DNA of 64,000 bases. It comes from Secundilactobacillus hailunensis. Lineage in GTDB: Bacteria; Bacillota; Bacilli; Lactobacillales; Lactobacillaceae. The position numbers were made by a program, and so were the translations under genes. Positions 5,813 to 23,374 of this stretch are shown piece after piece (within the stretch, counting starts at the first letter, position 1; the number at the start of each line of letters is the position of its first letter). Location of the stretch: the NCBI RefSeq assembly GCF_005405185.1, contig NZ_BJDO01000005.1, positions 1 through 64,000 on the forward strand. Direction: 5' to 3'. The notes beneath the pieces were generated by a model. The model did not search any database and was not told the DNA's origin. It saw only the letters and a list, made by a program, of their open reading frames with translations.

Positions 5813-6661
5813 TTACGGATTGGGTACCAATATAATTAGCATATAGCCAGGTTCTGGCGCCTCACCACCCAGTTCTGCTCCTGCGTACTGAGCGCCAATT
5901 GACCAACCAGTATACTTAGCTCGAGCAGTGGCACCATAACCAGCCTTTTCAAGTGCCTGTTCCATTGCTACATGGTCGTATGGGGCATCAGCATCAACAC
6001 GGATAATGACTGCACCATTACCATTAACATGCTCTTCACCCAGCGTTTCCTGTATGCTTTGAGTCGAATCATCAAAGTCTACAGCATCACTATAACCAGA
6101 GTCAAAAACATCGTTTGCTGCTCGTGTAATCTGAGAACTATAAATAGTGTGTGGGAATAACTGCATTAGATAAGCTCCACCGGCATCAATTCCACTACGA
6201 GGATCTTTTTCTAGTGCATTCCAATCCACATTTTCAACTGTGGTGCTAGGTGCAATTGACTTGCCACCAGTTGTTTGTGTGTTAGCACCACTAGTTGGTA
6301 TTGTTGGTGTAGTTCCAGTGCTTGAAGCAATTGACTTCAAGTAGCCATGCCATACCCAGCCTGTGCGGTGACCCACACGGAACTTGTAGTAAACGGAAGT
6401 CTTACCGTTCTTGGTCACATGGGCCGCGTAGTATTCTTCAACCTTTGAACCGTAATAGCGCATGGTACCCATCTTACGGGATAAGCGACCATTGTTATAA
6501 ACGTAGGCGTTCTTGTTAGTTACTGAGACCGTCTTGTTTGGGATGTTCTCGTAATACCGTACATAAGTCCGAGCCTGTGCGTTGGCTGGGGTTGCTGATA
6601 GGCCGAGTAACAAGCCACCGCCGATAACCAATGACAAACCCAATTGTTTCTTTAAGTTCAT
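5813..6661 (-). CDS. Secreted SH3-like protein, paralog A
   Basis: 282 residues. Residues 1-30 form a classical signal peptide (two Lys, hydrophobic LSLVIGGGLLLGLSATP, cleavage near ANAQA). Residues ~31-118 form an SH3/GW-like wall-binding segment rich in Tyr and ending RTGWVWHGYLK. A Thr/Ser-rich linker follows, then a ~140-residue C-terminal domain of unknown function that ends in VPNP. The N-terminal half is nearly identical in paralogs A, B, C and E, while the C-terminal half varies. It follows paralog B on the same strand, downstream of a phosphoesterase and a phage lysis module. The likely site of action is the cell wall. No enzyme motif was recognised in the C-terminal domain. Confidence 0.8.
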   Translation of the reverse strand: MNLKKQLGLSLVIGGGLLLGLSATPANAQARTYVRYYENIPNKTVSVTNKNAYVYNNGRLSRKMGTMRYYGSKVEEYYAAHVTKNGKTSVYYKFRVGHRTGWVWHGYLKSIASSTGTTPTIPTSGANTQTTGGKSIAPSTTVENVDWNALEKDPRSGIDAGGAYLMQLFPHTIYSSQITRAANDVFDSGYSDAVDFDDSTQSIQETLGEEHVNGNGAVIIRVDADAPYDHVAMEQALEKAGYGATARAKYTGWSIGAQYAGAELGGEAPEPGYMLIILVPNP

Positions 6662-6803
6662 TTTAAAGTTCCTCCCTTTAATGCAATTTAATTATAGTCT
6701 ATTTTTAGGGGGACAATATACAAGCATTTAAAGCTAAAAATGCATAAGCAAAACACCTTAAATAATTGCGGATCTCACCATCAGAGATTTTAGATTATTC
6801 ACA

Positions 6804-6842
6804 AAAATGGCTCGATCCCCATATTTAAGGGATCAGGCCATC
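6804..6842 (-). terminator. Terminator of secreted paralog B
   Basis: ATGGCtcGATCCC and GGGATCaGGCCAT stem, the same family as the stem at 5730. Confidence 0.7.
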
Positions 6843-6885
6843 ATTACTTAACCTATTTATTTAATTATTAAATGAAATTATCAAT

Positions 6886-7722
6886 TTATGGATTTGGTAC
6901 CAACAAAACTAATCCCATACCGCCTTGTGGACCTTCATCTGTATTTCCTGGTTCTTCATACTGAGCACCAATTGACCAACCAGCAAATTTAGCACGTGCA
7001 TTAGCGTCATAACCAGCTTTGTCGAGTGCTTTTTCGATTGCAGCGTAATCATCCAGTTTATTGGTAGAAGCACGGAACCTAATAGCAACAAAACCGTTCA
7101 TGTTTACACCCGTACCCCATGAATTTTGGTTTATACCATTATCGCTGTCATCAAAATCTGCCTCATCAGTAGTGTTCCATGAATATGCGGTAATTTCTTC
7201 TACTTTTTGATTGTAAATAGTTTTAGGGAACATCTGCATTATAGCAGCTGTGTCTGAATAGACTCCATCTCTCCTTGCAAGTGCGTTCCAGTCTTCATTT
7301 TCAACTGTGGTACCAGGAGCGATTGATTTACCGCTAGTCGTTTGTGTGTTAGTACCATTAGTTGGTGTTGTAGTCCCAGTGCTTGAAGCGATTGACTTTA
7401 AGTAGCCATGCCATACCCAGCCGGTGCGGTGACCCACACGGAACTTGTAGTAAACGGAAGTCTTACCGTTCTTGGTCACATGGGCCGCGTAGTACTCTTC
7501 AACCTTTGAACCGTAGTAACGCATGGTGCCCATCTTACGTGATAAGCAACCATTGTTATATACGTAGGCGTTCTTGTTGGTGACTGAAACCGTCTTGTTA
7601 GGGATGTTCTCATAGTACCGTACATAAGTTCTAGCCTGTGCGTTGGCTGGGGTGGCTGATAGACCGAGTAATAAGCCGCTGCCGACAACTAACGACAAGC
7701 CTAACTGTTTCTTTAAGTTCAT
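6886..7722 (-). CDS. Secreted SH3-like protein, paralog B
   Basis: 278 residues with the same signal peptide and SH3-like segment as paralog A; one difference is Cys in NNGCLSRK. The linker is shorter. The C-terminal domain contains IMQMFPKTIYN, a DFDDSD cluster, the segment AIEKALDKAGYDANARAKF and the end LVLLVPNP. It lies 139 bp downstream of phosphoesterase copy 1 on the same strand, so the pair may be co-expressed; a stem-loop (7824-7851) lies between them. AGGGAGG precedes the ATG. Its function is unknown; by context it could be the partner, substrate-presenting factor or protector for the adjacent phosphoesterase. Confidence 0.8.
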   Translation of the reverse strand: MNLKKQLGLSLVVGSGLLLGLSATPANAQARTYVRYYENIPNKTVSVTNKNAYVYNNGCLSRKMGTMRYYGSKVEEYYAAHVTKNGKTSVYYKFRVGHRTGWVWHGYLKSIASSTGTTTPTNGTNTQTTSGKSIAPGTTVENEDWNALARRDGVYSDTAAIMQMFPKTIYNQKVEEITAYSWNTTDEADFDDSDNGINQNSWGTGVNMNGFVAIRFRASTNKLDDYAAIEKALDKAGYDANARAKFAGWSIGAQYEEPGNTDEGPQGGMGLVLLVPNP

Positions 7723-7823
7723 TTCAATATCCTCCCTTTATATCCAAACTCATTATAAGTCTCCCCCATTTGTAAAACAATAAAGTCAATGTGAAATGAG
7801 CTTTCTTGATGTTGATTATGTAT

Positions 7824-7851
7824 GTAAACATGCGTCGATCTGCATGCTTAC
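7824..7851 (-). repeat. Stem-loop between phosphoesterase copy 1 and paralog B
   Basis: GTAAACATGC pairs with GCATGCTTAC (one wobble). Stem-loops with different sequence occupy the same place after copies 3 and 4 (17266-17288, 21069-21090). T-tracts are poor, so processing or stabilisation is as likely as termination. Confidence 0.5.
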
Positions 7852-7861
7852 AATATATAGA

Positions 7862-10195
7862 TTATGCTTTGCCTCCTGTATTCTGTGGCAGGTTATCAAT
7901 TTCCCAACTAGGTAAGAAATGAGTACCTGAAACATTGGATGTACCTCCATTATCAGGTGTATCTGTTTCTCCAAAACGGTGTTGGATTACTTGGCCAGCG
8001 GTAGGATTAAGCTGAATAACTCCCCAGCCATTTTCTTCAATATCACCGAGTCTAAATTGAGTAGTTTTAGCATTATCAAAACGATCTACATCCAGTGCCC
8101 GATCAGCAACCCCAGCTAAGGTAGTTACAAATTCAATTCCACCGGAAGTAGCATAATTATCACAATGAGTATGACCTGCAAAAAAGCCTAAAATATTATG
8201 ATACGTACTTTGATGATTAACCAACGAAGTGTAGATATTACCACTTGCTGTAACACCGGGTTTATAGGATGTTGTGGTGCTATTTTCAAACAGACCATCG
8301 ACATCGGCATTATAATTCCAAGCAGAACCAATTCCATTTAGCGCGATATGGTCAAATACTACAATTTTCCTATCTGCAGAGATCTCGCCTAGTGTTTTAT
8401 TTAACCATTTTTGTTGGCCTGCTGAATAATCTGTGTGACCGTGTCTGTACGCTTCGCGGTTGGGGTTAGGATTGTCGGCCATATCAAAGCCATCTAAAAC
8501 AAGAACCGTAACGTTACTGTCAGGCACATCATAACGACCAAACACTGCGTTATAGGGATTAGTTTTAATACCCTCAATTTCATCGTTCACAGATGGTACA
8601 TTGAGCCATTGAGAAAATTGATCTAAACGTAGTGGCGCAGCCTCGTTGTTAGTGATAACTTGATCAGCATTATCAAGAGTCTCATCACGCGCGTAACCAG
8701 AATTATCATCGTGGTTACCCTGTAAGACAATGAACGGCCGATGACTTAATTTAATAGCATCCATTGCTCGTTTAACATCTGCTACGGAAAAGTTTTTCGG
8801 TTTAACACCATCATTTAAATCACCACCATGGACAACTAAATCAACTCCGAAATTAGCAGCATAGTAGCTCATCAGTTGCATATTGCGTAATACTCGTGCA
8901 GTAGATGGTGTTTTGTAACTATCTACATGAGTATCAGTTGTATATGCAATCGTAACGCAATCTGACGCTGCTTCCTGATCGATTAAGTCTGACATTTTTT
9001 GCATAGCAGCTAATTCATCAGTTGTTGGTTGAACTGCAGTAGTAGTATCAATATCGGTAATGCTCGTTCCTACTTCCCAAGGTCGGGTGTCACGCCGAGT
9101 ATCATCTGTGTCGGTGGTATAAGGCCAATACTCTGAAATTGGTTGGATTTTTCCTCTGTCATTAATTACATACGAATAATCTGACTCATCCTTAGCTGCA
9201 CCAGACTTTCCACTTCGATGGATACTCTCAACATTAACATACGTACTTACCGGCAAAAATTGTCCATTTCGTAAAACGACCCAGAGGTGTCCGTCATTAA
9301 AGACTTTTCCAGTGTAATTAATGGGTGTACCTTTTTTGTATAGGCGAATGTTTTGCACGCCATGTGAATTCATATATGCTTTATCTCGGCCCCAGGCATC
9401 AGAAGTAATTGTTAATGTTGCTACCGTTGGATAAGTCACGCCTTCGCCAGCTGGTTCTCGATTAGGATCAGAGGTCATTGCTGGCATTGGTGTATCTGTA
9501 CCATTATGGGAACGGGTAATCTCGGTTTCACCGCCACCCGTAGTAGTCTTTTGTGGAATAACCGGGTCGCCAGGATTAGTATCCGTCCCATAATACCGGA
9601 ATGGACTGATCGTGACATATGGTACATAGTAAGTTAAACCATTCGTATTTACATATTGGAACCAGTAGTGACCGTCGGCTTTAATCTTGGCGTTATAGTC
9701 GACCGTTTCACCAATTGACCATGAATCCAGATGCTCAGCATCCATGTCTGTTGAGGCGCGACCTGCCACGGGTTCGGAAAAGGTAAACTGACCAGATTCT
9801 GTCAGCGTTGTGCCATCAGGCGTTTGATTAGCAACATCAGCACCTGCTTGACCAGTTAAGCTACCTAATTCACCGGTTTGACCAGTCTCAGTTCCAGTTG
9901 GTGGCACGATTGGCTGAACACTGGCATTGCTGTCAGTCCCCAAGTATTCGCCAGTATCGGTATTGGCATATGGCGCGTACCGAGTAGTACCAGAAGCAGA
10001 TTCATATGATAACCACAACCAGTTACCATTCTTTAGTTTCTTGGAATAGTTAACACTTTCACCAGATTCATAATAAACAATTGGTGTCGTGTCAATATTG
10101 GGTTCGTTTCGGACGCCAGCTTGAGCATTAAAAGTAAATGTCCCGTTAGCATTAATCGTATACATATCAGGTGTATTTGAAACATCAATAGGCAT
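7862..10195 (-). CDS. SH3-domain metallophosphoesterase, copy 1 (no signal peptide)
   Basis: 777 residues. Two clear SH3b-type wall-binding repeats (about 15-88 and 135-205) carry the GESVNY...GHYWFQY...YVPY pattern of lactobacillus phage lysins. A third, weaker repeat lies at about 258-325. Gly/Thr-rich linkers separate them. The C-terminal half is a calcineurin-like phosphoesterase: D-T-H near 421-423, GGD near 457-459, GNHD near 493-496, a FDH segment and GHTH, all metal ligands present. There is no N-terminal signal peptide, although wall-binding domains imply an extracellular target. It lies directly behind holin and lysozyme genes, so release by that pair is plausible. The natural substrate is unknown; a wall polymer phosphodiester is a guess. 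Confidence 0.82.
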   Translation of the reverse strand: MPIDVSNTPDMYTINANGTFTFNAQAGVRNEPNIDTTPIVYYESGESVNYSKKLKNGNWLWLSYESASGTTRYAPYANTDTGEYLGTDSNASVQPIVPPTGTETGQTGELGSLTGQAGADVANQTPDGTTLTESGQFTFSEPVAGRASTDMDAEHLDSWSIGETVDYNAKIKADGHYWFQYVNTNGLTYYVPYVTISPFRYYGTDTNPGDPVIPQKTTTGGGETEITRSHNGTDTPMPAMTSDPNREPAGEGVTYPTVATLTITSDAWGRDKAYMNSHGVQNIRLYKKGTPINYTGKVFNDGHLWVVLRNGQFLPVSTYVNVESIHRSGKSGAAKDESDYSYVINDRGKIQPISEYWPYTTDTDDTRRDTRPWEVGTSITDIDTTTAVQPTTDELAAMQKMSDLIDQEAASDCVTIAYTTDTHVDSYKTPSTARVLRNMQLMSYYAANFGVDLVVHGGDLNDGVKPKNFSVADVKRAMDAIKLSHRPFIVLQGNHDDNSGYARDETLDNADQVITNNEAAPLRLDQFSQWLNVPSVNDEIEGIKTNPYNAVFGRYDVPDSNVTVLVLDGFDMADNPNPNREAYRHGHTDYSAGQQKWLNKTLGEISADRKIVVFDHIALNGIGSAWNYNADVDGLFENSTTTSYKPGVTASGNIYTSLVNHQSTYHNILGFFAGHTHCDNYATSGGIEFVTTLAGVADRALDVDRFDNAKTTQFRLGDIEENGWGVIQLNPTAGQVIQHRFGETDTPDNGGTSNVSGTHFLPSWEIDNLPQNTGGKA

Positions 10196-10303
10196 AATTT
10201 TTACCTCACTTTATTTTTATTGTGATGCTGTAATCGCGATTACAGTGACCATTCTAGTGAGGTTTCTAAGCCCTACGTTCCGGATTTGTTGCAATCTACA
10301 GAA
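10196..10303 (-). promoter_or_regulatory. Palindrome-containing 5' region of phosphoesterase copy 1
   Basis: It contains the perfect palindrome CTGTAATCGCGATTACAG (10228-10245). It also has a second inverted pair in the gene's sense, ACCTCACT (upstream) and AGTGAGGT (overlapping the ribosome binding site), and the box CCGGATTTGTTGCAA (10280-10294). A TAGAAT lies between the ACCTCAC arm and the palindrome. The block is shared by all four copies. It may be a repressor/activator operator or an RNA hairpin that hides the ribosome binding site. Confidence 0.65.
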
Positions 10304-10336
10304 TAAAAGAGCCACCGAATTTCTCGGTAGCTTTTA
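10304..10336 (-). terminator. Terminator of the lysozyme gene
   Basis: TAAAAGAGCCACCGA and TCGGTAGCTTTTA stem with T-run in the minus direction. It is copied with each amplified unit (15805, 23477; a variant at 19742). Confidence 0.8.
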
Positions 10337-10933
10337 CTATAAAATACCTGCAAAATCATAATTAAAGTCCGTTTTTAACTGATACCCATTATTGGTATAC
10401 TGCCAAGCCTGGGCATTATCTACTCCGGGTTGGCTGACACCGTAAGAAGCAACCCAGATAGCTGGCAGATATTTTAGCTGAGTACGTTTAATTCGCTGAC
10501 TATTAAACCAGCTGGCTGAGGCGTAGACGACCAAGTAGTGAAAGCCCTGTCGGTATACGTAATCTAAGAACAGATTGATATCAGCAGTCACATTGTATTG
10601 TAAAGACTGATCTTCAACATCAATGGCACACACAGTATCCCTGTTTAGACCAAGCTTAATGATGTTTTTGACGAACCATTTAGCTTCATTTACGGGGTCG
10701 TTCATTCCGTAGCGCTGACTGTTGCCTCTAAAATAGTGATAGACACCAATTGATTTGAAAAAATCAAAACCGTTCAATAGTTGTATACCAGCCTTAGGAT
10801 TCACATAATGCGAACCGTTTTCAGATCCTTCCGTTAGCTTAACGAATAACCCCGTTGCGTGGTTATGTAACTTTCGCATGTAGTCCAAAGTATCTGGCTG
10901 AAACGAACTGATATCAGCAAATTCAGTTGTCAT
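10337..10933 (-). CDS. GH25-family endolysin (lysozyme)
   Basis: 198 residues from the ATG at 10933, which has GGAGG inside the end of the holin gene; a longer frame starts at 10948. Glycoside hydrolase 25 motifs: FADISSFQP near the start, FVKLTEG, YHYFRG, and the catalytic AIDVED, ending with AWQYTNNG. It cleaves peptidoglycan glycan strands. No separate wall-binding domain is present, unlike many lactobacillus phage lysins; SH3 repeats occur instead on the downstream phosphoesterase. It overlaps or abuts the holin gene, the standard phage lysis arrangement. Its last ~40 codons recur as fossils near 15838, 19771 and 23517. Confidence 0.92.
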   Translation of the reverse strand: MTTEFADISSFQPDTLDYMRKLHNHATGLFVKLTEGSENGSHYVNPKAGIQLLNGFDFFKSIGVYHYFRGNSQRYGMNDPVNEAKWFVKNIIKLGLNRDTVCAIDVEDQSLQYNVTADINLFLDYVYRQGFHYLVVYASASWFNSQRIKRTQLKYLPAIWVASYGVSQPGVDNAQAWQYTNNGYQLKTDFNYDFAGIL

Positions 10934-10934
10934 T

Positions 10935-11345
10935 TCATTTACCTCCATTCGCAGTTAATAGCTCTGGATCAGCAGCAGTTTCATCAACTTTGACTGCTTC
11001 GTGATTATCACCTAGAGTGACGTGCTTATATTCCTGGTAAGCTAGTTCAACCTTATCGGCCACAACATCTTTAGAAATATTGCCAGCTGTTTTTGCCATA
11101 TGCTGTAATACATAGTCTACTGCTTGGACTTTTCGTTCACTCTTAGAAAGTGCGGCATAATTGGCCATCGCAGCCACGGCTGAATAAGCTAAATTATCAG
11201 CAATCTGTAGGCACTGCTGAACTTGTCGGTTCTTTTCAGTGGCCATTTTTTCTGCAATAAAGGGATGTAGTAGCTTATAAACCGCCGGAATAGTGGTACA
11301 AATCAAAGTTACGATTGACGCAAAATCTAACGTTCCTGTTGTCAT
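10935..11345 (-). CDS. Phage holin, LLH type
   Basis: 136 residues. One N-terminal hydrophobic segment (about 5-28, FASIVTLICTTIPAVYKLL) is followed by a long amphipathic, Lys/Glu-rich helical region and a hydrophilic tail. This matches the LLH-type holin family of lactobacillus phages. Holins form membrane lesions that let a cytosolic endolysin reach the wall. The stop codon overlaps the ribosome binding site/start region of the GH25 gene. No phage head or tail genes are nearby, so the pair looks retained outside a prophage. Confidence 0.8.
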   Translation of the reverse strand: MTTGTLDFASIVTLICTTIPAVYKLLHPFIAEKMATEKNRQVQQCLQIADNLAYSAVAAMANYAALSKSERKVQAVDYVLQHMAKTAGNISKDVVADKVELAYQEYKHVTLGDNHEAVKVDETAADPELLTANGGK

Positions 11346-11363
11346 AATAAAACTCTCCTTTCA

Positions 11364-11756
11364 CTAATACCCCAATTCTTGTTCCAATAACTTAAAAAAA
11401 GCTGTCCGTTTACGGCTCACACTGGATTTACTCATATTCAAAACCATTCCAATACCTTCCAAGCTTAGATTGTTATCATGATTAAAGTACAGTTGTTTGA
11501 TAATTGTCTGGGTATCTTTGTCGGAATATTTTAAACAGTAGCTGATGCACTGCTTATTGATTTCTAGTTGCGCTAAGCAACGATCTGTACCGATACAATC
11601 ATCAAATAACATAGTTCCCACTGCCAATTTAGATAGCACATGGCTATGCCCTTGATATGAATATGAAAGTTCCGCCACTCTCACGGCCATATACTTATCG
11701 ATCTTTGGATAATCCCGCAAGATACTTTCTAAATGCTGACGCTCATAATCGTCCAT
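11364..11756 (-). CDS. ArpU/RinA-like phage transcriptional regulator
   Basis: 130 residues from ATG 11756 (GAGGTGA 6 bases upstream). The C-terminal part LSLEGIGMVLNMSKSSVSRKRTAFFKLLEQEL is a sigma-like helix-turn-helix, as in ArpU-family late regulators that switch on phage packaging/lysis genes. The N-terminal half is helical with no motif. It lies 19 bp upstream of the holin gene on the same strand. It is the obvious candidate to control holin, lysozyme and perhaps the palindrome-led phosphoesterase genes. A box resembling those before the phosphoesterase genes lies ~100 bp upstream of it. Confidence 0.8.
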   Translation of the reverse strand: MDDYERQHLESILRDYPKIDKYMAVRVAELSYSYQGHSHVLSKLAVGTMLFDDCIGTDRCLAQLEINKQCISYCLKYSDKDTQTIIKQLYFNHDNNLSLEGIGMVLNMSKSSVSRKRTAFFKLLEQELGY

Positions 11757-12389
11757 AAAAATCACCTCAAAATTATAGTTTAGAAACTTAAACTTGTTTC
11801 TGTATTACAAAGGACTTAAAACCTATGTTAATAAAATGGGAAAGAAACGTATCCCGGTTTTGTTGCAATATATCGATTCTTATCCATCTCCCTAGAACAT
11901 TTAGAATGTTAATAGTAATCACGTTAAAAGATCCCATATAACATCACTTCAAAATCAATTATAGAACGTACGTTCCCCATAATTCAAGACTGCTAACTTT
12001 AAAATTCTTGACTTTTAATAGCTAATCTGAAAAACAAAAATGGTCTGACTCTGTCGAATACAGGAATCAGGCCATTAATGAATTACTTATTTAAATCTAT
12101 CTAACTTCGTTGTAACACTTCAGCAGGTACGAGCAAAGGAAACTTATTACAGAATTAAATATAGCTTTAATAAGAGTATATTTTAATCTCTGCTATAAGA
12201 TAGAAAAACTTTTTTAAGACAGTAATATTCAACTTTTTTAATAAATTATTCTCCTAAAAGATTCGATGAAAGTACGTTTATATTTACACTTCTTATGTTC
12301 TAATGACTAAATACGGTAAAGAGCAAACACATGGTTTATTTCAAGTAACTAGTTTATAATTAGGTGGTTATTGGAAGGGGAGATTTATT
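11757..12389. other. Long intergenic region between divergent units
   Basis: The minus-strand side carries the ArpU promoter region, including CCCGGTTTTGTTGCAA (11853-11868), related to the box before the phosphoesterase genes. Around 12036-12076 is a decayed copy of the paralog terminator (ATGGTCTGACTC ... GAATCAGGCCAT) with no gene beside it, suggesting a lost paralog. The remainder is A/T-rich; a TATAAT-like box near 12354 probably serves paralog C. Confidence 0.5.
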
Positions 12390-13265
12390 ATGAATTTAAA
12401 GAAACAATTAGGCTTGTCGTTAGTTGTCGGTGGTGGCTTGTTACTCGGTCTATCAGCTACCCCAGCCAACGCACAGGCTCGGACCTATGTACGGTATTAT
12501 GAGAACATCCCTAATAAGATGGTCTCAGTCACCAACAAGAATGCCTATGTATATAACAATGGTCGCTTATCACGTAAGGTAGGTACCATGCGTTATTACG
12601 GATCTAAGGTCGAAGAATACTATGCCGCTCACGTGGTTAAGAACGGTAAAGCTTCAATCTACTACAAGTTCCGTGCCGGTAAATACACTGGCTGGGTATG
12701 GCACGGCTACTTGAAGTCAATTACTTCAAGTACTGGTGTTACCCCTACTACCACGCCAACGAATACTGGTACAACCACTAATACTGGTACAACCACTAAT
12801 ACAGGTAACACAGGCGCAACTAGCACTGATTTAGCAGCAGTTGAGAACATTAACTGGAGTAAGACTAATGCAGTTGGTCCTTTTGCTAGTGACCCAACAT
12901 TAATGCAAATGTTCCCTCACACTACATTTAGCAATTTTCTATATTCAACAGCTAAAAGTTACGACAACTTGGACGATGGTGTTGATCGGGTAGGTTACTT
13001 TGGCCCTGACATGACTAAGACTATTGATAATAATTTGCACTTACCTAGTGGTACTGAGCCAGTAATTGTTCATGCTGACGTTAGTGAGCCAGAACCATTT
13101 ACGAAAGCTAACATTGACACAGCTTTGACAAAGGCTGGTTATGATGCAAACACCCGAGCTAAGTACAGTGGCTGGTATATCGGTGGTAGCATTGAACCTG
13201 AGAGCTGGGCTGATGAAGGTGCATACGGTGGTATGACAACCATCATCTTAGTGCCTTCAAAATAA
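12390..13265 (+). CDS. Secreted SH3-like protein, paralog C (inverted)
   Basis: 291 residues. The signal peptide and SH3-like segment are nearly identical to paralogs A and B, but the gene is on the plus strand, alone among the five. The linker holds a TNTGTTTNTG repeat. The C-terminal domain is the most divergent: it keeps LMQMFPHTTF, ALTKAGYDANTRAKYSGW and an ILVP end, but lacks the DFDDS cluster and ends PSK rather than PNP. GGGGAG lies before the ATG. It converges on phosphoesterase copy 2, so this unit has been partly inverted or assembled from different copies. Confidence 0.8.
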   Translation: MNLKKQLGLSLVVGGGLLLGLSATPANAQARTYVRYYENIPNKMVSVTNKNAYVYNNGRLSRKVGTMRYYGSKVEEYYAAHVVKNGKASIYYKFRAGKYTGWVWHGYLKSITSSTGVTPTTTPTNTGTTTNTGTTTNTGNTGATSTDLAAVENINWSKTNAVGPFASDPTLMQMFPHTTFSNFLYSTAKSYDNLDDGVDRVGYFGPDMTKTIDNNLHLPSGTEPVIVHADVSEPEPFTKANIDTALTKAGYDANTRAKYSGWYIGGSIEPESWADEGAYGGMTTIILVPSK

Positions 13266-13337
13266 CCTCTTAAAGATTCTAATTTAAGAGTATTACTTAA
13301 TAACAAATAACTATAACTAAATAATCTTATCTGGTTA

Positions 13338-13386
13338 GGCAACTAGATTTCACTTTATGCAAGTGAAATCTAGTTGCCTTTTTTGA
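13338..13386 (+). terminator. Terminator of paralog C
   Basis: GGCAACTAGATTTCACTT pairs perfectly with AAGTGAAATCTAGTTGCC, followed by TTTTTT. Confidence 0.9.
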
Positions 13387-13410
13387 TTGTACCAGTATGC
13401 TTTTCTTTAG

Positions 13411-13449: not shown

Positions 13450-13475
13450 GAAGGAACATGTAGTAATCATTTTAG

Positions 13476-15695: not shown

Positions 15696-15804
15696 AATTT
15701 GTTACCTCACTTATATTTTATTGTGATACTGTAATCGCGATTACAGTGACCATTCTAGTGAGGTTCCTAAGTCCTACGTTCCGGATCTGTTGCAATCTAC
15801 AGAA
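15696..15804 (-). promoter_or_regulatory. Palindrome-containing 5' region of phosphoesterase copy 2
   Basis: The 20-bp palindrome ACTGTAATCGCGATTACAGT lies at 15728-15747, with the flanking ACCTCACT/AGTGAGGT pair and the box CCGGATCTGTTGCAA at 15781-15795. Same layout as copy 1. Confidence 0.65.
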
Positions 15805-15838: not shown

Positions 15839-16076
15839 TATAAAATACCTGCAAAATCATAATTAAAGTCCGTTTTTAACTGATACCCATTATTGGTATA
15901 CTGCCAAGCCTGGGCATTATCTACTCCGGGTTGGCTGACACCGTAAGAAGCAACCCAAATTGCCGGCTGATACGCACATAAGTCCGAGCCTGTGTGTTGG
16001 CTGGGGTTGCTGATAAGCCAAGTAACAAACCACCGCAAATAACTAACGGCAAGCCTAATTGTTTCTTTAAGTTCAT
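15838..16076 (-). pseudogene. Chimeric fossil: start of a secreted paralog joined to the end of the GH25 lysozyme
   Basis: Reading from ATG 16076, the first ~36 codons match the secreted paralogs' signal peptide (MNLKKQLGLPLVICGG ... ARTYVR). The sequence then switches, around a short TATC-GCC similarity, into the last ~41 codons of the lysozyme gene (AIWVASYGVSQPGVDNAQAW ... DFAGIL), which are in another frame. The paralog frame stops soon after the switch. This is a recombination scar between a paralog 5' end and the lysozyme 3' end, i.e. the joint of one amplified unit. Confidence 0.8.
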
Positions 16077-16225
16077 ATCAATGTTCCTCCCTTTAAAGCA
16101 ATTTAATTATTGCCTTTTTTCGGGGGGGACAATGCAAAGGCATTTAATGCTAAAAATGCATCGACCCTAGGTCCTAAATACTGCCAGGCTTCGCTACCGA
16201 AACTTTTAACGTGATTTGCAAAAAA

Positions 16226-16261
16226 ATGACCTGATCCCAATATTTAAAGGGATCAGGTCAT
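16226..16261 (-). terminator. Terminator of secreted paralog D
   Basis: ATGACCTGATCCC and GGGATCAGGTCAT perfect stem, same family as 5730-5765. Confidence 0.8.
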
Positions 16262-16308
16262 CATTGTTTACCATATAAAGTTATTAATTGCTAAATGAAT
16301 CATTCAGC

Positions 16309-17157: not shown

Positions 17158-17265
17158 TTTAAGTTTCTCCTTTTAAGAACAAATTTAAGTATAGCCCCCC
17201 TTTTTCATTTAAGCAATAAATCTAATATCAATAAACATTCATTAATTACTATTGCACTTATGTAA

Positions 17266-17288
17266 GCAAGCATGCAACGCATGCTTGC
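17266..17288 (-). repeat. Stem-loop between phosphoesterase copy 3 and paralog D
   Basis: GCAAGCATGC pairs perfectly with GCATGCTTGC across a 3-nt loop. It corresponds in place, not sequence, to the stem-loops after copies 1 and 4. Confidence 0.5.
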
Positions 17289-17296
17289 AGTATTCA

Positions 17297-19630
17297 TTAT
17301 GATTCTGCCCCAGTATTCTGTGGTAATTTACCAATCTGCCAATTAGATAAAAAGTACTCATCGGGATTGTTACTTATACCACTCGTTTTACCGCCAAAAC
17401 GATGTCTAATAACTTGACCATTTGATGGATTAAGTTGAATAATTTCCCAACCATTTTCTTCAATATCACCCAATTTAAAAGGGGTACCATCTGCTACAGT
17501 TGCACTAACAAATTTAGAACGATCCGCAACAGCAGCTAAGGAAGTTACAAATTCAATTCCTCCAGAAGTTGCATAGTTATCTAAATGAGTATGCCCAGCA
17601 AAAAATCCTAAGATGTTATGATGCTGATTCTGCTGATTAACTAGAGACGTATAAATGGCATGGCTTGCCTTAACTCCTGGTTGATATGAAACAGCATCCG
17701 TATTATTTTCATCAAGTTTTTCCCAGCCATCATGATTCTTCCAGTCAGTACCGATACCACTTAGTCCAATATGATCAAACACGACAATTTTTCTATCTAC
17801 AGAAATTTCACCTAATGTCTTATTTAGCCACTTCTGTTGACCTGGCGAGTAATCAGTATGCCCATGCCGAAATGACTCACGATTTGGGTTAGGATTATCT
17901 GCCATATCAAAACCATCTAAAACAAGAACTGTAACATCACTATTTGGCACATCATAACGACCAAACACCGCATTATTAGGATTAGTCTTGATACCATCAA
18001 TTTCATCCTCAGTAGATGGTACATTTAGCCATTGTGAAAATTGATTTAAACGTAATGGTGCAGCTTCATCATTAGTAATAACCTGATCACCATTCTCATG
18101 AGTCTCATCTCGCGCATAACCAGAATTGTCATCATGATTCCCTTGAAGTACAATGAATGGCCGACGACTCAATTTGATGGCATCCATAGCTCGTTTAATA
18201 TCGGCTTTTGAAATGTCCTTAGGTTTAACCCCATCATTTAAGTCACCGCCATGGACAACTAAATCAACTCCGAAATGATTAGCATAGTAACTCATCAATT
18301 GCATGTTTCGTAATACCCTGGCCGTTGATGGTGTCTTATAACTATCAACATGAGTATCAGTAGTATATGCAATAGTAACGCAATCTGGTGCAGCCGCAGC
18401 ATCAATGGCTTTAGACATATTTTCCATGGCCGTTAATTCATCACTTGTTGGTTCAACTTCAGTCGTGGTATCAATATCAGTAATACTCAATCCACTTTCC
18501 CAAGATTTCGTATCGCCAACACTATGAGGAAATTCGCTCGTAAAAGGCCAATATTCTTCAATAGGTTGAAAATGCCCTGTATCATCAGAAACATAGCCGT
18601 AATCTGATTTATACTTTGAATCAGTACTATTGTGAATAGTCTTTGCATTATCATACGTACTTACGGGCAAATATTGACCGTTTCGGAGAACAACCCATAA
18701 ATGGTTATCGTTAAAGAGTTTCCCCGTATAATTAATTGGAGTATTTTTCTTATATAAACGAATCTGATTAGCTTTATTATTAGGATCCATAACTGGTTTA
18801 GCACGTCCCCAAGCATTAGACAAAAGCGTTAACGAACCTACTGTTGGATAGATATATTGATCACCTTCACCAATATATTCGCGCACAGGATTGGAATCCA
18901 TTGTTGGCATGACCGTATCGACCCCAGTATGTGAACGTGGTGTTCCAGTCTGCGTAGTACCAGTATCTTTTTGAGGAATAACCGGGTCGCCAGGATTGGC
19001 GTCCGTCCCGTAGTAACGGAATGGGTTAATGGTAGCATATGGGACATAATACGTGGAACCGTTAGTATTTACATATTGGAACCAGTAATGACCGTCGGCT
19101 TTAATCTTGGCGTTATAGTCGACTGTTTCCCCAACTGACCATGAATCTAGATGCTCAGCATCCATGTCTGTTGAGGCGCGGCCTGCAGCGGGTTCGGAAA
19201 AGGTAAACTGACCAGATTCTGTCAGCGTTGTACCATCAGGCGTTTGATCAGCAACATCAGCACCTGCTTGACCAGTTAAACTACCTAATTCACCAGTTTC
19301 AGTACCGGTTCCAGTTCCTGTACCAGTACCAGTTGGTGGTACGATAGGTTGAACACTGGCATTACTATCGGTTCCTAAATATTCACCAGTTTCTGTATTG
19401 GCATATGGTACATACCTAGTAGCACCAGAAGTCGATTCATAGGATAACCATAACCAGGTACCATTTTTTAGTTTCTTGGAATAATTAACACTTTCACCAG
19501 ATTCATAATAAACAATTGGTGTCGTGTCAATATTGGGTTCGTTTCGGACGCCAGCTTGAGCATTGAAAGTAAATGTTCCGTTAGCATCAATTTCATACAT
19601 ATCAGGTGTATTTGAAACATCAATAGGCAT
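17297..19630 (-). CDS. SH3-domain metallophosphoesterase, copy 3
   Basis: 777 residues. The N-terminal SH3 region is nearly identical to copy 2 (same EIDANG start and GTGTGT linker, one GT unit longer). The catalytic half is closer to copy 1 (CVTIAYTTDTHVDSY, RPFIVLQGNHDDNSG, GHTHLDNYATSGG) and has the LPQNTG-like end. All metal-ligand motifs are intact. So copy 3 appears to be a mosaic of a copy 2-type N-terminus and a copy 1-type catalytic part. It is followed by paralog D and preceded by the palindrome leader and a longer lysozyme fossil. Confidence 0.82.
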   Translation of the reverse strand: MPIDVSNTPDMYEIDANGTFTFNAQAGVRNEPNIDTTPIVYYESGESVNYSKKLKNGTWLWLSYESTSGATRYVPYANTETGEYLGTDSNASVQPIVPPTGTGTGTGTGTETGELGSLTGQAGADVADQTPDGTTLTESGQFTFSEPAAGRASTDMDAEHLDSWSVGETVDYNAKIKADGHYWFQYVNTNGSTYYVPYATINPFRYYGTDANPGDPVIPQKDTGTTQTGTPRSHTGVDTVMPTMDSNPVREYIGEGDQYIYPTVGSLTLLSNAWGRAKPVMDPNNKANQIRLYKKNTPINYTGKLFNDNHLWVVLRNGQYLPVSTYDNAKTIHNSTDSKYKSDYGYVSDDTGHFQPIEEYWPFTSEFPHSVGDTKSWESGLSITDIDTTTEVEPTSDELTAMENMSKAIDAAAAPDCVTIAYTTDTHVDSYKTPSTARVLRNMQLMSYYANHFGVDLVVHGGDLNDGVKPKDISKADIKRAMDAIKLSRRPFIVLQGNHDDNSGYARDETHENGDQVITNDEAAPLRLNQFSQWLNVPSTEDEIDGIKTNPNNAVFGRYDVPNSDVTVLVLDGFDMADNPNPNRESFRHGHTDYSPGQQKWLNKTLGEISVDRKIVVFDHIGLSGIGTDWKNHDGWEKLDENNTDAVSYQPGVKASHAIYTSLVNQQNQHHNILGFFAGHTHLDNYATSGGIEFVTSLAAVADRSKFVSATVADGTPFKLGDIEENGWEIIQLNPSNGQVIRHRFGGKTSGISNNPDEYFLSNWQIGKLPQNTGAES

Positions 19631-19730
19631 AATTTTTACCTCGCTTTATTTTTATTGTGATACTGCAATCGCGATTACAGTGACCATTCTAGTGAGGTTT
19701 ATGCTGCCCGTGTCCCGGGTTTGTTGCAAC
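19631..19730 (-). promoter_or_regulatory. Palindrome-containing 5' region of phosphoesterase copy 3
   Basis: CTGCAATCGCGATTACAG (19663-19680) has one arm changed relative to the other copies; as RNA it would still pair through a G-U wobble. The outer arm at the ribosome binding site also has one change (AGCGAGGT). The box CCCGGGTTTGTTGCAA is at 19714-19729. Confidence 0.6.
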
Positions 19731-19741
19731 TCACGGGATAT

Positions 19742-19772
19742 AAAAAAGCTGTTGAAAACTCGACAGCTTTTT
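19742..19772 (-). terminator. Terminator after the lysozyme fossil of unit 3
   Basis: AAAAAAGCTGT and ACAGCTTTTT stem; the sequence differs from the other lysozyme terminators although its place is the same. Confidence 0.75.
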
Positions 19773-19945
19773 ATTGTAGAATTCCAGCAAAATCATAATT
19801 AAAGTCCTTTTTTAACTGATACCCATTATTGGTATATTGCCAAGCCTGGACATTATCTATTCCGGGTTGGCTGACACCATAAGAAGCAACCCAGATAGCT
19901 GGCTGATATTTTAATTGCTCCCTTTTGATCCCAGACTGTGGGAAG
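19771..19945 (-). pseudogene. 3' fragment of a GH25 lysozyme gene
   Basis: About 50 codons (GIKREQLKYQPAIWVASYGV ... DFAGILQ) match the C-terminus of the lysozyme at 10337. The upstream part is missing. It marks the left-over end of the lysozyme gene in amplified unit 3 and is longer and more diverged than the fossil at 15838. The transition out of homology is near 19945. Confidence 0.75.
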
Positions 19946-20040
19946 ATATTGATGATGTGAACTGGGACAAGCTCTAGGCTTCAGAAACTTAAAACTATGC
20001 ACTCACGGAGAATGCTTTTACGATCTTGGTTAGAATAAAA
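19946..20040. other. Intergenic spacer
   Basis: No gene or structure recognised beyond the edge of the lysozyme fossil. Confidence 0.4.
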
Positions 20041-20075
20041 ATGACCCAATCCCCTTGTTTAAAGGATCAGGTCAT
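20041..20075 (-). terminator. Terminator of secreted paralog E
   Basis: ATGACCCAATCC and GGATCAGGTCAT stem with mismatches, same family as 5730-5765. Confidence 0.65.
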
Positions 20076-20114
20076 CTCTATTGAATTTATTACTTGTTAA
20101 GTAAATCAGTCAGT

Positions 20115-20969
20115 TTATGGATTTGGTACCAAGTAGACTAAAGCATCACCCGCTTGTGGCCCTTCATCTGTACTACCTGGTTCTTCATATTCAGCTCCAA
20201 TTGACCAACCAGCAAACTTAGAACGGGCGTTAGCATCATAACCAGCTTGGTCGAGTGCTCTTAAAATTGCAGCATGATCATATGGTGCTTTGACCGTGAA
20301 CGGAATCCCAACAAAGCCGGTACTGTTAATTGTTTTAGATGAACTAACACGATGACCATAGTCTCCACTTATGAAATGAGTGCTACTTAGCCATCTCTGT
20401 AAGGATTGCTGACTTTCGTCAAAATCTACGCCATCTGCTGATCCGGCACTCCAAAGTTGTTGAGCAGCCAGTTCAACTGAACGGTTATATATGGTGTCTG
20501 GGAACAATTGCATAATATATTCCTGTGTACTATCTAAAACATCACGTTTTTCAATAGCCGACCAATTCATATTATCAACTGTTGTGTTAGTTGGCGTGGT
20601 TGCACCACTAGTTGGTGTAGTACCAGTGCTTGAAGCGATTGACTTCAAGTAGCCATGCCATACCCAGCCAGTGCGATTACCAGCACGGAACTTGTAGTAG
20701 ATTGAAGCTTTGCCGTTCTTAACCACGTGAGCAGCGTAATATTCTTCAACCTTTGAACCGTAATAACGCATCGTGCCAACCTTACGGGATAAACGACCAT
20801 TGTTATATACGTAGGCGTTCTTGTTAGTTACTGAAACCGTCTTGTTGGGAATATTCTCATAATAGCGTAAATAAGTGCTGGCATGTGCCGTTGTCTGCGT
20901 GGTTGATAAACCGAATAACAAGCCACCGCCGACAACTAATGACAAGCCTAATTGTTTCTTTAAATTCAT
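20115..20969 (-). CDS. Secreted SH3-like protein, paralog E
   Basis: 284 residues. A signal peptide (FGLSTTQTTAHA) is followed by the shared SH3-like segment (VYNNGRLSRKVGTMRYYGSK) and a short linker. The C-terminal domain has IMQLFPDTIYN, VDFDESQQSLQ and a ~15-residue insertion (STHFISGDYGHRVSSS) absent in the others, then AILRALDQAGYDANARSKF and an LVPNP end. It lies about 140 bp after the frameshifted phosphoesterase copy 4. The gene itself is intact, so any requirement for its neighbour is not absolute. Function unknown. Confidence 0.8.
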   Translation of the reverse strand: MNLKKQLGLSLVVGGGLLFGLSTTQTTAHASTYLRYYENIPNKTVSVTNKNAYVYNNGRLSRKVGTMRYYGSKVEEYYAAHVVKNGKASIYYKFRAGNRTGWVWHGYLKSIASSTGTTPTSGATTPTNTTVDNMNWSAIEKRDVLDSTQEYIMQLFPDTIYNRSVELAAQQLWSAGSADGVDFDESQQSLQRWLSSTHFISGDYGHRVSSSKTINSTGFVGIPFTVKAPYDHAAILRALDQAGYDANARSKFAGWSIGAEYEEPGSTDEGPQAGDALVYLVPNP

Positions 20970-21068
20970 TTCAATATCCCCCCTTTACGTACAACTCATT
21001 ATAAATCCCCTCTATTCATAAAACAATGAATTCAATGCTATACAAGGTTCACCTAGTCATTATGTACG

Positions 21069-21090
21069 CGGGTATACGTATGCATACCCG
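21069..21090 (-). repeat. Stem-loop after phosphoesterase copy 4
   Basis: CGGGTAT pairs with ATACCCG. It sits where copies 1 and 3 carry unrelated stem-loops. Confidence 0.45.
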
Positions 21091-21108
21091 TTATTTACTA
21101 GAAATGGC

Positions 21109-23374
21109 TTAGTTAATAGACCACTCGCCTAAGTAACTTTCTGAGTCGATATGTCCATTTTGCACGTTTTCATCTTGTTCAGAGCGTCCAAATCGATGCT
21201 GGATGACCATCTTACCATTAGTGTTGGTTGGATTTAATTGAATAACCTCCCAAGCATACTCATTTAAATCATCACCATCGTAATCACGTGCTTCTCGACC
21301 GTCACCACGATCAGCAATATCGCATGCAATAGTCGCAAAATGTATATTGCCAGAGTCTGCATAATTGTCACGATGAGTGTGACCGGAGAAGAACCCTAAA
21401 ATGTTGTGTTTCTGCGCTTGATTATCAACCAGGGCAGTATAAATTAATCCACTGCGTTCAGCAGCTTCCTGATAAGATTTGGCGCCAGTATTTTCATACA
21501 GTGATTTAAAATCATCAAATTTCCATTCAGTTTCTTTAATACCTTTAACCGTTAAATGATCAAATACAGCAATTTTACGGTTTGAAGGGATATCGGCAAG
21601 TTTCTTAACTAACCAGTCACGTTGCTGCATAGTGTAGTCAGTATGTCCATGTCGGAAAGATTCATGATTTGGCTCTGACACATCAGCCATGTCGAAACCA
21701 TCTAAAACAATAATTGTTACATTACTATTTGGTACATCATAACTACCAAACACCGCATTATTTGGATTTTCACTACCTGTAGGGACATCTAGCCACTGTG
21801 AAAACTGATCTAAGCGTAAGGGCTTAGCTTCATCATTAGTAATAACCTGATCTGCATTGTTATTTGTTTCGTCCCGTGCGTAACCAGAATTATCATCATG
21901 ATTACCTTGAAGAACAATAAATGGACGATGGCACAACTTAATAGCATTCATGGCCCGTTTGATATCGGCAATTGAAATATCTTTTGGCTTTGCACCATCA
22001 TTTAAATCACCACCATGAATAACTAAATCCACACTATAGTGATTAGCAAAATAGCTAACTAATTTAAGATGACGTAAAGCCCGTGCACTGGAAGGCGTTT
22101 CATAACTATCAAAATGAGTATCAGCCATGTATGCTATCTGGATCAGCATCATGATCAATATCAGCAGCTAAGTTATCCATAGCAACCTTTTCGGCAGGCG
22201 TTGGCTCAATTTCAGTTGTAGAATCGATATCTGTAATTGTTAATCCCTTTTCCCATGTTGCTGTATTAACTTGACCATGTTTCATTTCCAAAGCATAAGG
22301 CCAATATTCTTCAATCGGCTGAACTTTTCCAGTATCATCAGTAACATAACTATAATTTGACCAGTTGTGAGGGACTCCCTTAGTGGCACTATCAACAATA
22401 CTCTTTACATTTTCATACGTACTGACTGGCAAATATTGGCCGTTTCGAAGAACAACCCATAAATGATCATCATTAAAAGTTTTTCCAGTATAATTAATTG
22501 GAGTACCTTTCTTATATAACCGAATTTGATTAGCTTTATTATTAGGATCCATAACTGGTTTAACACGACCCCATGCATCAGAATGAATTGTTAATGACCC
22601 AACCGATGGATAAATATAGGCTTCCCCGACAAACTTTCTTCCTGGATCAGAATCCATGGCCGGCATGGCTGTATCGACCCCAGTATGTGAACGTGGCGTC
22701 CCAGTTTGGGTAGTAGTCCCGGTATCTTTTTGCGGAATAACCGGATCACCAGGATTAGTATCTGTTCCATAATACCGGAATGGACTGATCGTGGCATATG
22801 GTACATAGTAAGTTGAACCATTCGTATTTACATATTGGAACCAGTAGTGACCGTCGGCTTTAATCTTGGCGTTATAGTCGACCGTTTCCCCAACTGACCA
22901 TGAATCCAGATGCTCAGCATCCATGTCTGTTGAGGCTCGGCCTGCCGCGGGTTCGGAAAAGGTAAACTGACCAGATTCTGTCAGCGTTGTGCCGTCAGGC
23001 GTTTGGTCAGCAACATCAGCACCTGCTTGACCAGTTAAGCTACCTAATTCACCAGTTTGACCAGTCTCAGTTCCAGTTGGTGGCACGATTGGCTGAACAC
23101 TGGCATTGCTGTCAGTCCCCAAGTATTCGCCAGTATCGGTATTGGCATATGGCACGTACCGAGTAGTACCAGAAGCAGATTCATATGATAACCACAACCA
23201 GTTACCATTCTTTAGTTTCTTGGAATAGTTAACACTTTCACCGGATTCATAATAAACAATTGGTGTCGTGTCAATATTGGGTTCGTTTCGGACGCCAGCT
23301 TGAGCATTAAAAGTAAATGAGCCATTAGCATCAATTTCATACATATCAGGTGTATTTGAAACATCAATAGGCAT
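21109..23374 (-). pseudogene. SH3-domain metallophosphoesterase, copy 4, frameshifted
   Basis: The 5' part (22121-23374, 417 codons) has the SH3b repeats and stops right before the catalytic domain, reading DPDSIHG-stop. The catalytic domain continues in another frame (21109-22158) from IQIAYMADTHFDSY, with GGD, GNHD, FDH and GHTH all intact. Compared with DPDSVSITFITDTH in copy 2, about 11 bases are missing, consistent with loss between two ATAGC repeats. The result would be a free SH3 fragment. A separately translated catalytic fragment is possible but has no clear ribosome binding site. The C-terminus ends YLGEWSIN. Confidence 0.8.

Follow-up and report, generated by a model that had tools for sequence, protein, structure and literature searches.

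What does a set of phage-type lysis genes do in a bacterial chromosome when it lies among repeated genes for large wall-binding enzymes? We addressed this question in a window of 64,000 nucleotides from Secundilactobacillus hailunensis (the whole stretch of DNA analyzed here; contig NZ_BJDO01000005.1, positions 1 to 64,000). There, genes for an ArpU/RinA-type regulator, an LLH-type holin and a GH25 lysozyme share an island with four genes for leaderless cargo proteins (MPP_A to MPP_D), which combine SH3 wall-binding domains with a calcineurin-like phosphoesterase, and with five genes for exported, fast-evolving partner proteins (SP_A to SP_E). An earlier note on this DNA had proposed a lysis-type secretion system. 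The tie between a phage-derived lysis module and the cargo held up, considering its recurrence in related species and a common upstream box, while a secretion system for one phosphoesterase did not, since the cargo is interchangeable and comes with matched partners. Rather than a general secretion device, we favor, at better than even confidence, an island of bacteriocin type in the chromosome, which would have taken its late regulator and its lysis genes from an old prophage. It also seems probable to us that the effectors are leaderless, wall-binding proteins released by holin and lysozyme, with protection provided by the exported partners. This anatomy of a bacteriocin and immunity island is suggested because cargo swaps with helveticin J-like or tail-spike-like effectors in related islands and because a matched, exported partner accompanies almost every cargo gene.

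Lysis genes, cargo and the common upstream box

The regulator matched the NCBIfam RinA model above its cut-off (1.4e-11) and a PHROG transcriptional regulator (1.3e-15), with weak matches below cut-off to sigma-factor models. The holin matched a PHROG holin family (1.7e-9), the Pfam Holin_LLH model staying below its cut-off (0.11), and the lysozyme matched Pfam GH25 (4.2e-24). Thirty-four flanking open reading frames (ORFs) chosen from the window gave no head, tail or packaging PHROG among the 25 of 27 families listed, several of which carry no description. The earlier note was thus right about the three families and the lack of nearby head or tail genes, and its ORF coordinates were correct. 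It had the lysis genes followed by four cargo copies; in fact only MPP_D (7862-10195) follows them and the other three lie beyond the regulator, and five partner genes and the cut ends of lysozyme genes had escaped it. Along the minus strand, from high to low coordinates, the order is MPP_A (two pieces, 23374-21109), SP_A, a cut lysozyme end, MPP_B, SP_B, a cut partner start with a cut lysozyme end, MPP_C, SP_C (on the plus strand), regulator, holin, lysozyme, MPP_D, SP_D and SP_E.

Relatives of the holin were found on 16 plasmid records, of which four were opened (H27, H30, H35 and H37). A baseplate gene is a neighbor in H27 and terminase, portal and head genes are neighbors in H37; H30 and H35 have holin-type and lysozyme genes with no structural genes listed, and none of the four has a phosphoesterase annotation, their gene tables being incomplete.

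Pfam SH3_5 and Metallophos domains matched above cut-off in the three intact cargo copies and are split across two ORFs in the fourth. At the level of predicted domains, a large protein with wall-binding and catalytic parts (SH3_5 5.1e-18, Metallophos 8.4e-10) matches the layout of class III bacteriolysins. A model of MPP_D (mean predicted local distance difference test score, pLDDT, of 80) contains three SH3-like beta domains and the phosphoesterase domain, and the SH3 arm resembles the wall-binding domains of lysins and lysostaphin. The best fold matches were 2nxf, a zebrafish dimetal phosphatase (Z 25.6, root-mean-square deviation 2.7, 267 aligned), Lmo2642 (22.7, 3.5, 275) and the glycerophosphodiesterase GpdQ (20.4, 3.7, 248), followed by Rv0805 (19.1, 2.8, 223) and PhoD (Z 15.4). 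A shared fold fixes no substrate; together with the wall binding and the tail-spike alternative described below, it would be compatible with a glycerol-phosphate polymer. The metal-site motifs, which we take to be the usual phosphoesterase set, are kept in all four copies, MPP_A included, and not in three as previously claimed; in MPP_A, a small out-of-frame deletion immediately ahead of these motifs splits the gene (judged by eye against copies B and D). The ratio of nonsynonymous to synonymous substitution rates (dN/dS) of the phosphoesterase was 0.09-0.15 in three of four comparisons and saturated in the remaining one, indicating purifying selection.

Leaders were assessed by the best 12-residue hydropathy mean within the first 45 residues, which is not a SignalP run. 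SH3-armed and helveticin-like cargo reached at most 1.06, and partners at least 1.78, save for values of 1.51 in one partner and 0.72 in another, the latter probably lacking its start. By this measure the cargo has no hydrophobic N-terminus, in agreement with the earlier description of SH3 repeats and a calcineurin-like phosphoesterase on a protein without signal peptide, while the partners start in a signal-peptide-like manner.

Repeats in the island form two families of four 300-nt blocks with 89-97% identity, far beyond chance. Copies B and C are each preceded by a cut lysozyme 3' end, and 5' of copy A a remnant of a few residues can be recognized by eye. Repeats D5 and D8 abut exactly at 15972/15973, fusing the start of a partner gene to the end of a lysozyme gene; therefore, the duplicated unit runs from the lysozyme 3' end through the intergenic region and the cargo gene to the partner gene.

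A TTGCAACAAAyCCGG-type box precedes the regulator gene and each of the four cargo genes, at -93 to -103, the copy at MPP_C being weaker. Among 16 upstream regions of regulator and cargo genes (window, S. mixtipabuli, S. folii and genomes G011 and G014), 15 carry TAnnAT exactly 36 nt past the box start. At up to two mismatches the 20-nt box matched four times in the strain's own 2.7-Mb genome, always in the island (reversed control, two), and 26 times over 15 genomes, 13 of them in islands. As the pattern was derived from island sites, its island matches arise by construction and are no independent test, and those outside islands occur at the chance rate, the reversed pattern giving 13 over the same genomes. 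One box copy, at G011:C12:18891-18910, has no obvious cargo ORF downstream on its strand and perhaps marks a lost cassette. An 18-bp palindrome also stands 5' of all four cargo genes; elsewhere the genome has one site with two mismatches, and the control gave none. We infer that the regulator may bind the box. A simple single operon was ruled out because a terminator-like hairpin ends the lysozyme gene and every cargo gene has its own upstream box.

Recurrence, cargo exchange and matched partners

When 397 genomes of the family were searched with alignment A1, 22 of them, from 3 of 40 genera, had matches at E <= 1e-60. The relatives named belong to Secundilactobacillus, Levilactobacillus and Lentilactobacillus, the islands of the last two being more loosely similar. 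Of 15 genomes of the genus, 9 had a match to the holin query and 10 to the lysozyme query, and the trio of regulator, holin and lysozyme is also present in S. mixtipabuli, S. folii, S. kimchicus, G011, G014, G002 and L091 (a Lentilactobacillus-type genome). A holin or lysozyme homologue lies within the fetched stretch at 10 of the 15 loci with SH3-armed cargo; at the 18 loci with standalone phosphoesterases, no holin, lysozyme or regulator homologue was found. The standalone count includes five loci (L125-L129) with a weak SH3 label, placed there as part of a conserved chromosomal pair, and the locus counts leave out seven distant matches (L132-L138, metagenome-assembled genomes of Clostridia and an archaeon). 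The search for the gene order in other Lactobacillaceae suggested by the earlier note thus showed that the link between lysis and cargo genes recurs in related species, most of the loci examined having no head or tail genes among the families listed. Tail genes accompany one of the 15 SH3-cargo loci, so the enzyme is not always a tail protein within a complete prophage.

The phage context was assessed at ten related loci by a scan of the nearest non-island ORFs, at most seven at each locus and 66 of 105 in total, and no head or tail family appeared among those listed (25 of 54 and 25 of 32 PHROG families); a few ORFs matched endolysin or transposase families. Both flanks of the window align to a S. 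mixtipabuli contig on either side of its own island, placing the two in the same chromosomal interval, and the flanking genes, by eye, encode a copper ATPase, Dps, an MFS protein and a branched-chain amino acid carrier. The PHROG families listed for the flanking ORFs (25 of 27) and the common interval rule out an intact prophage, or a tail protein, in the window. A plasmid origin of the cargo was also rejected, as tblastn of MPP_D against plasmids returned 15 records, none at 80% coverage and all below 60% identity, and SP_D returned none. A phage reservoir of the cargo was likewise discarded: scans of viral contigs with the phosphoesterase alignment (A3) and with alignment A5 confirmed no relative, and helveticin matched two loci. 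An anti-phage defence role was set aside, since PADLOC gave no relevant match for six proteins beyond one weak match (0.0046).

The cargo position can hold other effectors. Helveticin J-like genes for leaderless proteins of ~310 aa adjoin the lysis genes in G002, G011 and G014. The helveticin family PF17312 (cut-off 25.5 bits) was passed by L086:9994-10950 in G002 (40.1) and by L106:16262-17434 (41.1), with L086:12651 just under the cut-off at 24.2 bits; the three cargo proteins scanned from L084/L085 (G011/G014) and L091:13090 gave no Pfam helveticin match. Of five aligned L084/L085 proteins, four are 52-57% identical to L086:9994 and one is 31% identical. Four upstream stretches of ~190 nt from G011/G014 are 88, 87, 86 and 81% identical to that of MPP_D, and the coding starts cannot be aligned; these stretches carry the box and a palindrome-like element, and most also the lysozyme end and the terminator-like hairpin. 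Two alike 102-aa ORFs (L091:4697-5005 and 12659-12967) stand 5' of helveticin-like genes; we guess that they are the terminase-small-subunit matches mentioned below.

A different exchange affects the C-terminus. In two proteins that are 65% identical, from L106 (Levilactobacillus cerevisiae) and L101 (G316), the same SH3 arm carries another C-terminus and no phosphoesterase, and in L106 this C-terminus matches tail-spike PHROG 22811 (1.4e-10). A third tail-spike-like gene, recognized by BLAST likeness, lies at a contig start in L. kefiri. In the PHROG scan the L101 C-terminus had no match, and the L115 protein matched unnamed families only weakly. By eye the swapped effector has what we take to be a beta-helix repeat pattern; Pfam had nothing above threshold, and a sequence search of the PDB matched the SH3 arm and nothing convincing C-terminally. 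A constant arm with an exchangeable C-terminal effector, here phosphoesterase or tail-spike-like, is a trait of polymorphic toxins that these predicted proteins display.

Outside the islands, a conserved chromosomal pair consists of a helveticin-like gene divergent from a gene for a ~684-713-aa phosphoesterase (G000:C1:52912-56040, that is L071:7913-11041, and also L121, L123 and L125-L130). In several of the loci opened, genes of the mevalonate pathway and for glycerol kinase were recognized nearby by eye. The alternative cargo families of the islands are therefore neighbors elsewhere too. Most members of the genus retain a second, standalone phosphoesterase gene, and five Lentilactobacillus loci (L112, L114, L116, L117 and L118) have cargo-related phosphoesterases of 519-530 aa without SH3_5 arm, partner or lysis genes.

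Each cargo gene of the window adjoins a partner gene, the five partners measuring 284, 282, 291, 278 and 282 aa. Among 20 SH3-armed cargo genes, the partner is the next gene in 17 and lies across two transposase-like ORFs in one; one has none and one lies at a contig end. Only 1 of 18 standalone phosphoesterases has an adjoining partner. The SH3/GW-like part of the partners gave weak Pfam matches and their C-terminus none. The C-terminal half of SP_D, in a low-confidence model (mean pLDDT 60), resembled CAP proteins: SAV1118 (Z 9.2, rmsd 3.1, 108 aligned), a B. anthracis SCP-domain protein (8.7, 3.7, 114) and PrgA 6z9l (6.6, 3.8, 124); the non-CAP structure 8th8 also matched (Z 7.7). CAP-type catalysis relies on histidines, and as this half of SP_D contains none, binding would be expected rather than such catalysis.

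Partners also outnumber cargo, five to four in the window and four to one in the S. mixtipabuli stretch. S. angelensis (G001; L083:7930-9571) has two partner-type genes without cargo, without a HOL match and without an island helveticin, its helveticin content being the conserved chromosomal gene; the lysozyme query matches two longer genes there at 37-39%. One of these partner genes is 99% identical to a G011 helveticin partner, and the first 109 residues of the other are 83% identical to SP_A. Such a surplus of antidotes is what toxin-immunity pairs would lead us to expect, and falls short of proof.

We then compared how cargo and partners vary. When 48 partners were grouped by C-terminus, those of the two tail-spike-like effectors formed their own cluster and seven helveticin partners a third one; 35, including partners of phosphoesterases and some of helveticins, were loosely linked, and four stood alone. 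The N-terminal half of the two tail-spike-type partners is the one also present in phosphoesterase partners, with 91% identity over 127 aa in one of them. Across 15 cargo-partner pairs, C-terminal distances correlated (Mantel r=0.63, P=0.0001), also when both N-termini were controlled (partial Mantel r=0.44, P=0.0011), a test that does not fully remove shared ancestry, as discussed below. The clearest apparent case of joint change is L. raoultii, whose two pairs agree N-terminally, at 86% over 98 aa in the cargo and 84% over 140 aa in the partner; the C-termini of pair 2 are closer to L. kefiri than to pair 1, in the cargo (86% vs 43%) as in the partner (43% vs 14%). Within the window, mean C-terminal identity is 45% among the quartet of partners and 64% among their cargo. 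Altogether, the predicted match between partner and effector type is clear in places, not throughout.

Table 1. Features of the island, by position in the window.
Feature	Position	Strand	Basis
SP_E, second exported partner, 3' of MPP_D, 282 aa	5813..6661	-	ORF, hydropathy
SP_D, exported partner of MPP_D, 278 aa: signal-peptide-like start, SH3/GW-like part, C-terminal CAP-like domain	6886..7722	-	
MPP_D, leaderless cargo, 777 aa: SH3-like domains (2 by Pfam, 3 in model) and calcineurin-like phosphoesterase	7862..10195	-	
18-bp palindrome 5' of MPP_D	10228..10245	.	
Shared box (TTGCAACAAAtCCGG type) 5' of MPP_D, -10-like TAnnAT at fixed distance	10275..10294	-	
Terminator-like hairpin and T-run past lysozyme gene	10301..10332	-	seen directly in sequence
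GH25 lysozyme, 203 aa, without wall-binding domain by Pfam	10337..10948	-	
LLH-type holin, 136 aa	10935..11345	-	
ArpU/RinA-type regulator, 133 aa	11364..11765	-	
Shared box 5' of regulator gene	11849..11868	-	
SP_C, exported partner adjoining MPP_C, inverted, 291 aa	12390..13265	+	
MPP_C, leaderless cargo, 739 aa	13476..15695	-	
Palindrome 5' of MPP_C	15729..15746	.	
Shared box, one mismatch, 5' of MPP_C	15779..15793	-	
Cut lysozyme 3' end; repeat junction with partner-gene 5' piece at 15972/15973	15841..16002	-	
Partner-gene 5' piece, residues 1-38	15963..16076	-	
SP_B, exported partner of MPP_B, 282 aa	16309..17157	-	
MPP_B, leaderless cargo, 777 aa	17297..19630	-	
Palindrome, one base off, 5' of MPP_B	19663..19680	.	
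Shared box 5' of MPP_B	19710..19729	-	
Cut lysozyme 3' end, residues 147-203	19777..19947	-	
SP_A, exported partner of MPP_A, 284 aa	20115..20969	-	
MPP_A C-terminal piece (phosphoesterase) of broken fourth cargo gene	21109..22158	-	
MPP_A N-terminal piece (SH3 arm) of broken fourth cargo gene	22121..23374	-	
Palindrome 5' of MPP_A	23401..23418	.	
Shared box 5' of MPP_A	23448..23467	-	

The remainder of the window holds several other features recognized by eye. Transposase-like genes, some split, lie at 35842-38183 and 56019-57170, the latter a TnpB-like gene, and transposase PHROG families are present among the flanking genes. Near-duplicate genes for LysR-type regulators (32897-33799 and 44571-45509) and for dicarboxylate-type transporters (34136-35554 and 51037-52455, one of the two being split) form pairs that surround aconitase- and fumarase-like genes. 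The interval 45712-50929 presumably encodes a lar nickel-pincer cofactor and lactate racemase set with a nickel transporter.

Proposed mechanism and competing explanations

We propose that the ArpU/RinA-type protein would switch on, through the shared box, its own operon (regulator, holin and lysozyme) and the cargo genes. A subset of cells would make the leaderless cargo in the cytoplasm, and holin and lysozyme would then open membrane and wall, letting it escape. Outside, the SH3 arm would dock on the walls of related cells and the phosphoesterase would cut a phosphodiester-containing polymer of wall or membrane, most simply glycerol-phosphate teichoic acid. The Sec-exported partners, which are probably immunity proteins, would guard surviving kin beforehand, being seated in the wall by their SH3-like part and neutralizing the matching cargo with their variable C-terminal domain. 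New specificities may arise by duplication or exchange of cassettes that comprise the lysozyme 3' end, promoter, cargo and partner.

Several observations weigh against this proposal. Concerning release and regulation, the terminator-like hairpin stands between the lysozyme gene and MPP_D, and 5 of the 15 SH3-cargo loci have no holin or lysozyme gene in the fetched stretch, so that release there would need genes in trans. At three mismatches the box had no match 5' of the phosphoesterase genes examined in Levilactobacillus and Lentilactobacillus or 5' of the S. kimchicus and G002 cargo, and that of the S. folii cargo is weak (three mismatches), this being also the sole region of the 16 without TAnnAT. 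The hydropathy test is crude, its wider form (60 residues, threshold 1.5) flagging some regulators too. Concerning immunity, one SH3-armed cargo gene, in L. hilgardii, has no partner; the CAP-like fold comes from a model of mean pLDDT 60 with a best Z of 9.2; family searches revealed no likeness of partners to a known immunity protein; and CAP domains are not known as immunity proteins. Several helveticin-adjacent partners (G002, G011 and L091) group loosely with phosphoesterase partners by their C-termini, and in one instance partners of the two effector types match over their full length (56% over 256 aa, mostly N-terminal, reaching the C-terminus); partner type is therefore not cleanly mapped to effector type. 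Moreover, distances between cargo N-termini and partner C-termini correlate as strongly (r=0.68), which is why shared ancestry is not fully removed from the Mantel test. Concerning origin, two ORFs of the 33 in the second set from the ten related loci match terminase small subunit, so that some phage traces remain; one of the four window cargo genes is broken, which is also compatible with decay; and one of the 15 SH3-cargo loci, in L. kosonis, adjoins phage tail genes. There (L119:36-13152, contig 9), tape-measure, Dit (with SH3_5) and tail genes are followed by a short holin, lysozyme, two-piece cargo and partner, which we read as a possible trace of origin, the cassette standing behind prophage lysis genes.

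These last points are those that prophage debris would explain, with a decaying lysis module and phosphoesterases as old moron or tail-derived genes that are roleless or phage-related, for instance in blocking other phages. The cut lysozyme ends fit as well, and a minor structural protein of phage ATCCB matches at 28% identity over 47% of the query. Prophage debris is, however, quite improbable in view of the strong purifying selection, the recurrence in three genera, the shared box and the exchange with helveticin-like cargo, and the viral-contig and PADLOC results given above also speak against it. We regard as very unlikely that the cargo are amplified enzymes for scavenging extracellular phosphate or glycerophosphate, or for remodelling the cell's own wall, with ordinary surface proteins as partners. 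The model fold close to 2nxf, Lmo2642 and GpdQ and the second standalone phosphoesterase gene of most genus members would suit such a role; it leaves the lysis module, the helveticin- and tail-spike-like swaps and the matched variable partners unaccounted for.

Instead of acting as an antidote, the partner could bind the target wall and assist the cargo as a co-effector, in the way that BacA assists BacL1 in Bac41, where, in the relevant part of PMC9951850, BacA is a co-factor needed by BacL1. SH3 domains in the cargo, an SH3/GW-like part in the partners (weak Pfam matches) and their joint variation would all be compatible with this. The signal-peptide-like start is found on the partners and not on the cargo, so the two would be outside at different times; the surplus of partners, their occurrence without cargo, and C-termini that in the window quartet are less alike than those of the cargo suit immunity better, and we give the co-effector role little credence. 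Another possibility is that the same cargo, in folded form and along with the lysozyme, leaves through the holin without lysis, so that the producer survives. Such a route has been proposed for clostridial toxins and for type 10 secretion; the cargo would then be either a bacteriocin or a remodeller of the own wall. PMC9527704, in the portion concerned, argues for such non-lytic holin export of leaderless SH3b bacteriocins, and the window lysozyme, having no Pfam wall-binding domain, could be a milder one. The sequence does not distinguish lytic from non-lytic release, and we hold the non-lytic route to be unlikely, our preference remaining with lytic release of a bacteriocin guarded by exported partners.

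Related systems and meaning for the lactobacilli

The nearest working analogue of the island, by comparison of descriptions, appears to be the Bcn5 type of Clostridium (Bcn5, UviA, UviB and endolysin), where a leaderless SH3b bacteriocin is accompanied by holin, endolysin and a dedicated regulator, as set out in part of PMC9527704. According to the same portion, UviA is a sigma factor and UviB a BhlA-family holin, in contrast to the RinA/ArpU-type regulator and LLH-type holin found here; because the regulator differs, we do not file the island as a Bcn5-type member. The phosphoesterase, tail-spike-like or helveticin J-like effectors with exported partners set it further apart, again by description. 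Bac41 of E. faecalis (BacL1, BacA and an immunity factor) shares the wall-binding SH3 repeats on a large bacteriolysin, and its subtypes differ in a region tied to specific immunity factors (relevant passages of PMC9951850 and PMC8532689). BacL1, however, is described there as cutting peptidoglycan peptides and needing BacA, and those passages describe no lysis module, whereas the present cargo has a Metallophos catalytic domain; this comparison too is by description.

Class III bacteriocins of the helveticin J type (PF17312) are the alternative cargo of related islands. A helveticin J homologue without signal peptide is recorded extracellularly in part of PMC4015849, and the immunity mechanism of helveticin producers is called undescribed in a passage of the review PMC8538875. 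An L. johnsonii strain has a helveticin J homologue, plus a holin in a separate gassericin T-like cluster (a section of PMC10703779), and prophage lysins have been argued to act as class III bacteriocins in Lactococcus (a section of PMC10377672). Our literature search found no report tying helveticin to a phage lysis module, and among titles and abstracts no description of the present combination, which is weak evidence of absence; phosphoesterase and tail-spike-like effectors, the helveticin link and exported CAP-like partners thus look new in the searchable literature. The island also resembles type 10 secretion and TcdE-type holin export, where a holin and a muralytic enzyme are encoded with leaderless cargo, and differs from them in having several exchangeable cargo-partner pairs instead of one secreted toxin or enzyme set, and in that its export is predicted. 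With polymorphic toxin-immunity systems it shares the constant N-terminal arm, the exchangeable C-terminal effector and a neighboring partner whose sequence changes alongside; unlike there, an SH3 array that binds the wall forms the constant arm, and the exported partner has an SH3-like part of its own.

Tentatively, and at slightly less than even confidence, we suggest that these islands form a polymorphic class of lysis-released, wall-targeted bacteriocins in Lactobacillaceae, with a phage-derived core, exchangeable effectors and wall-docked CAP-domain antidotes that change with them. Just as tentatively, its effectors would include a teichoic-acid-type phosphodiesterase, a tail-spike-type depolymerase and helveticin J-like proteins, a set so far undescribed.

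The hosts are food-associated lactobacilli. If the proposal is true, Gram-positive bacteria would keep phage lysis genes as a colicin-like release device, and leaderless helveticin J-like bacteriocins would have a release route in these species; how such large proteins exit, and how their producers are protected, would become directly testable. The enzymes that bacteria are proposed to use against the Gram-positive walls of other bacteria would be joined by a phosphodiesterase and a tail-spike-like depolymerase, and the common anchor of lysozyme end and promoter would provide an exchange mechanism by which new weapons are loaded.

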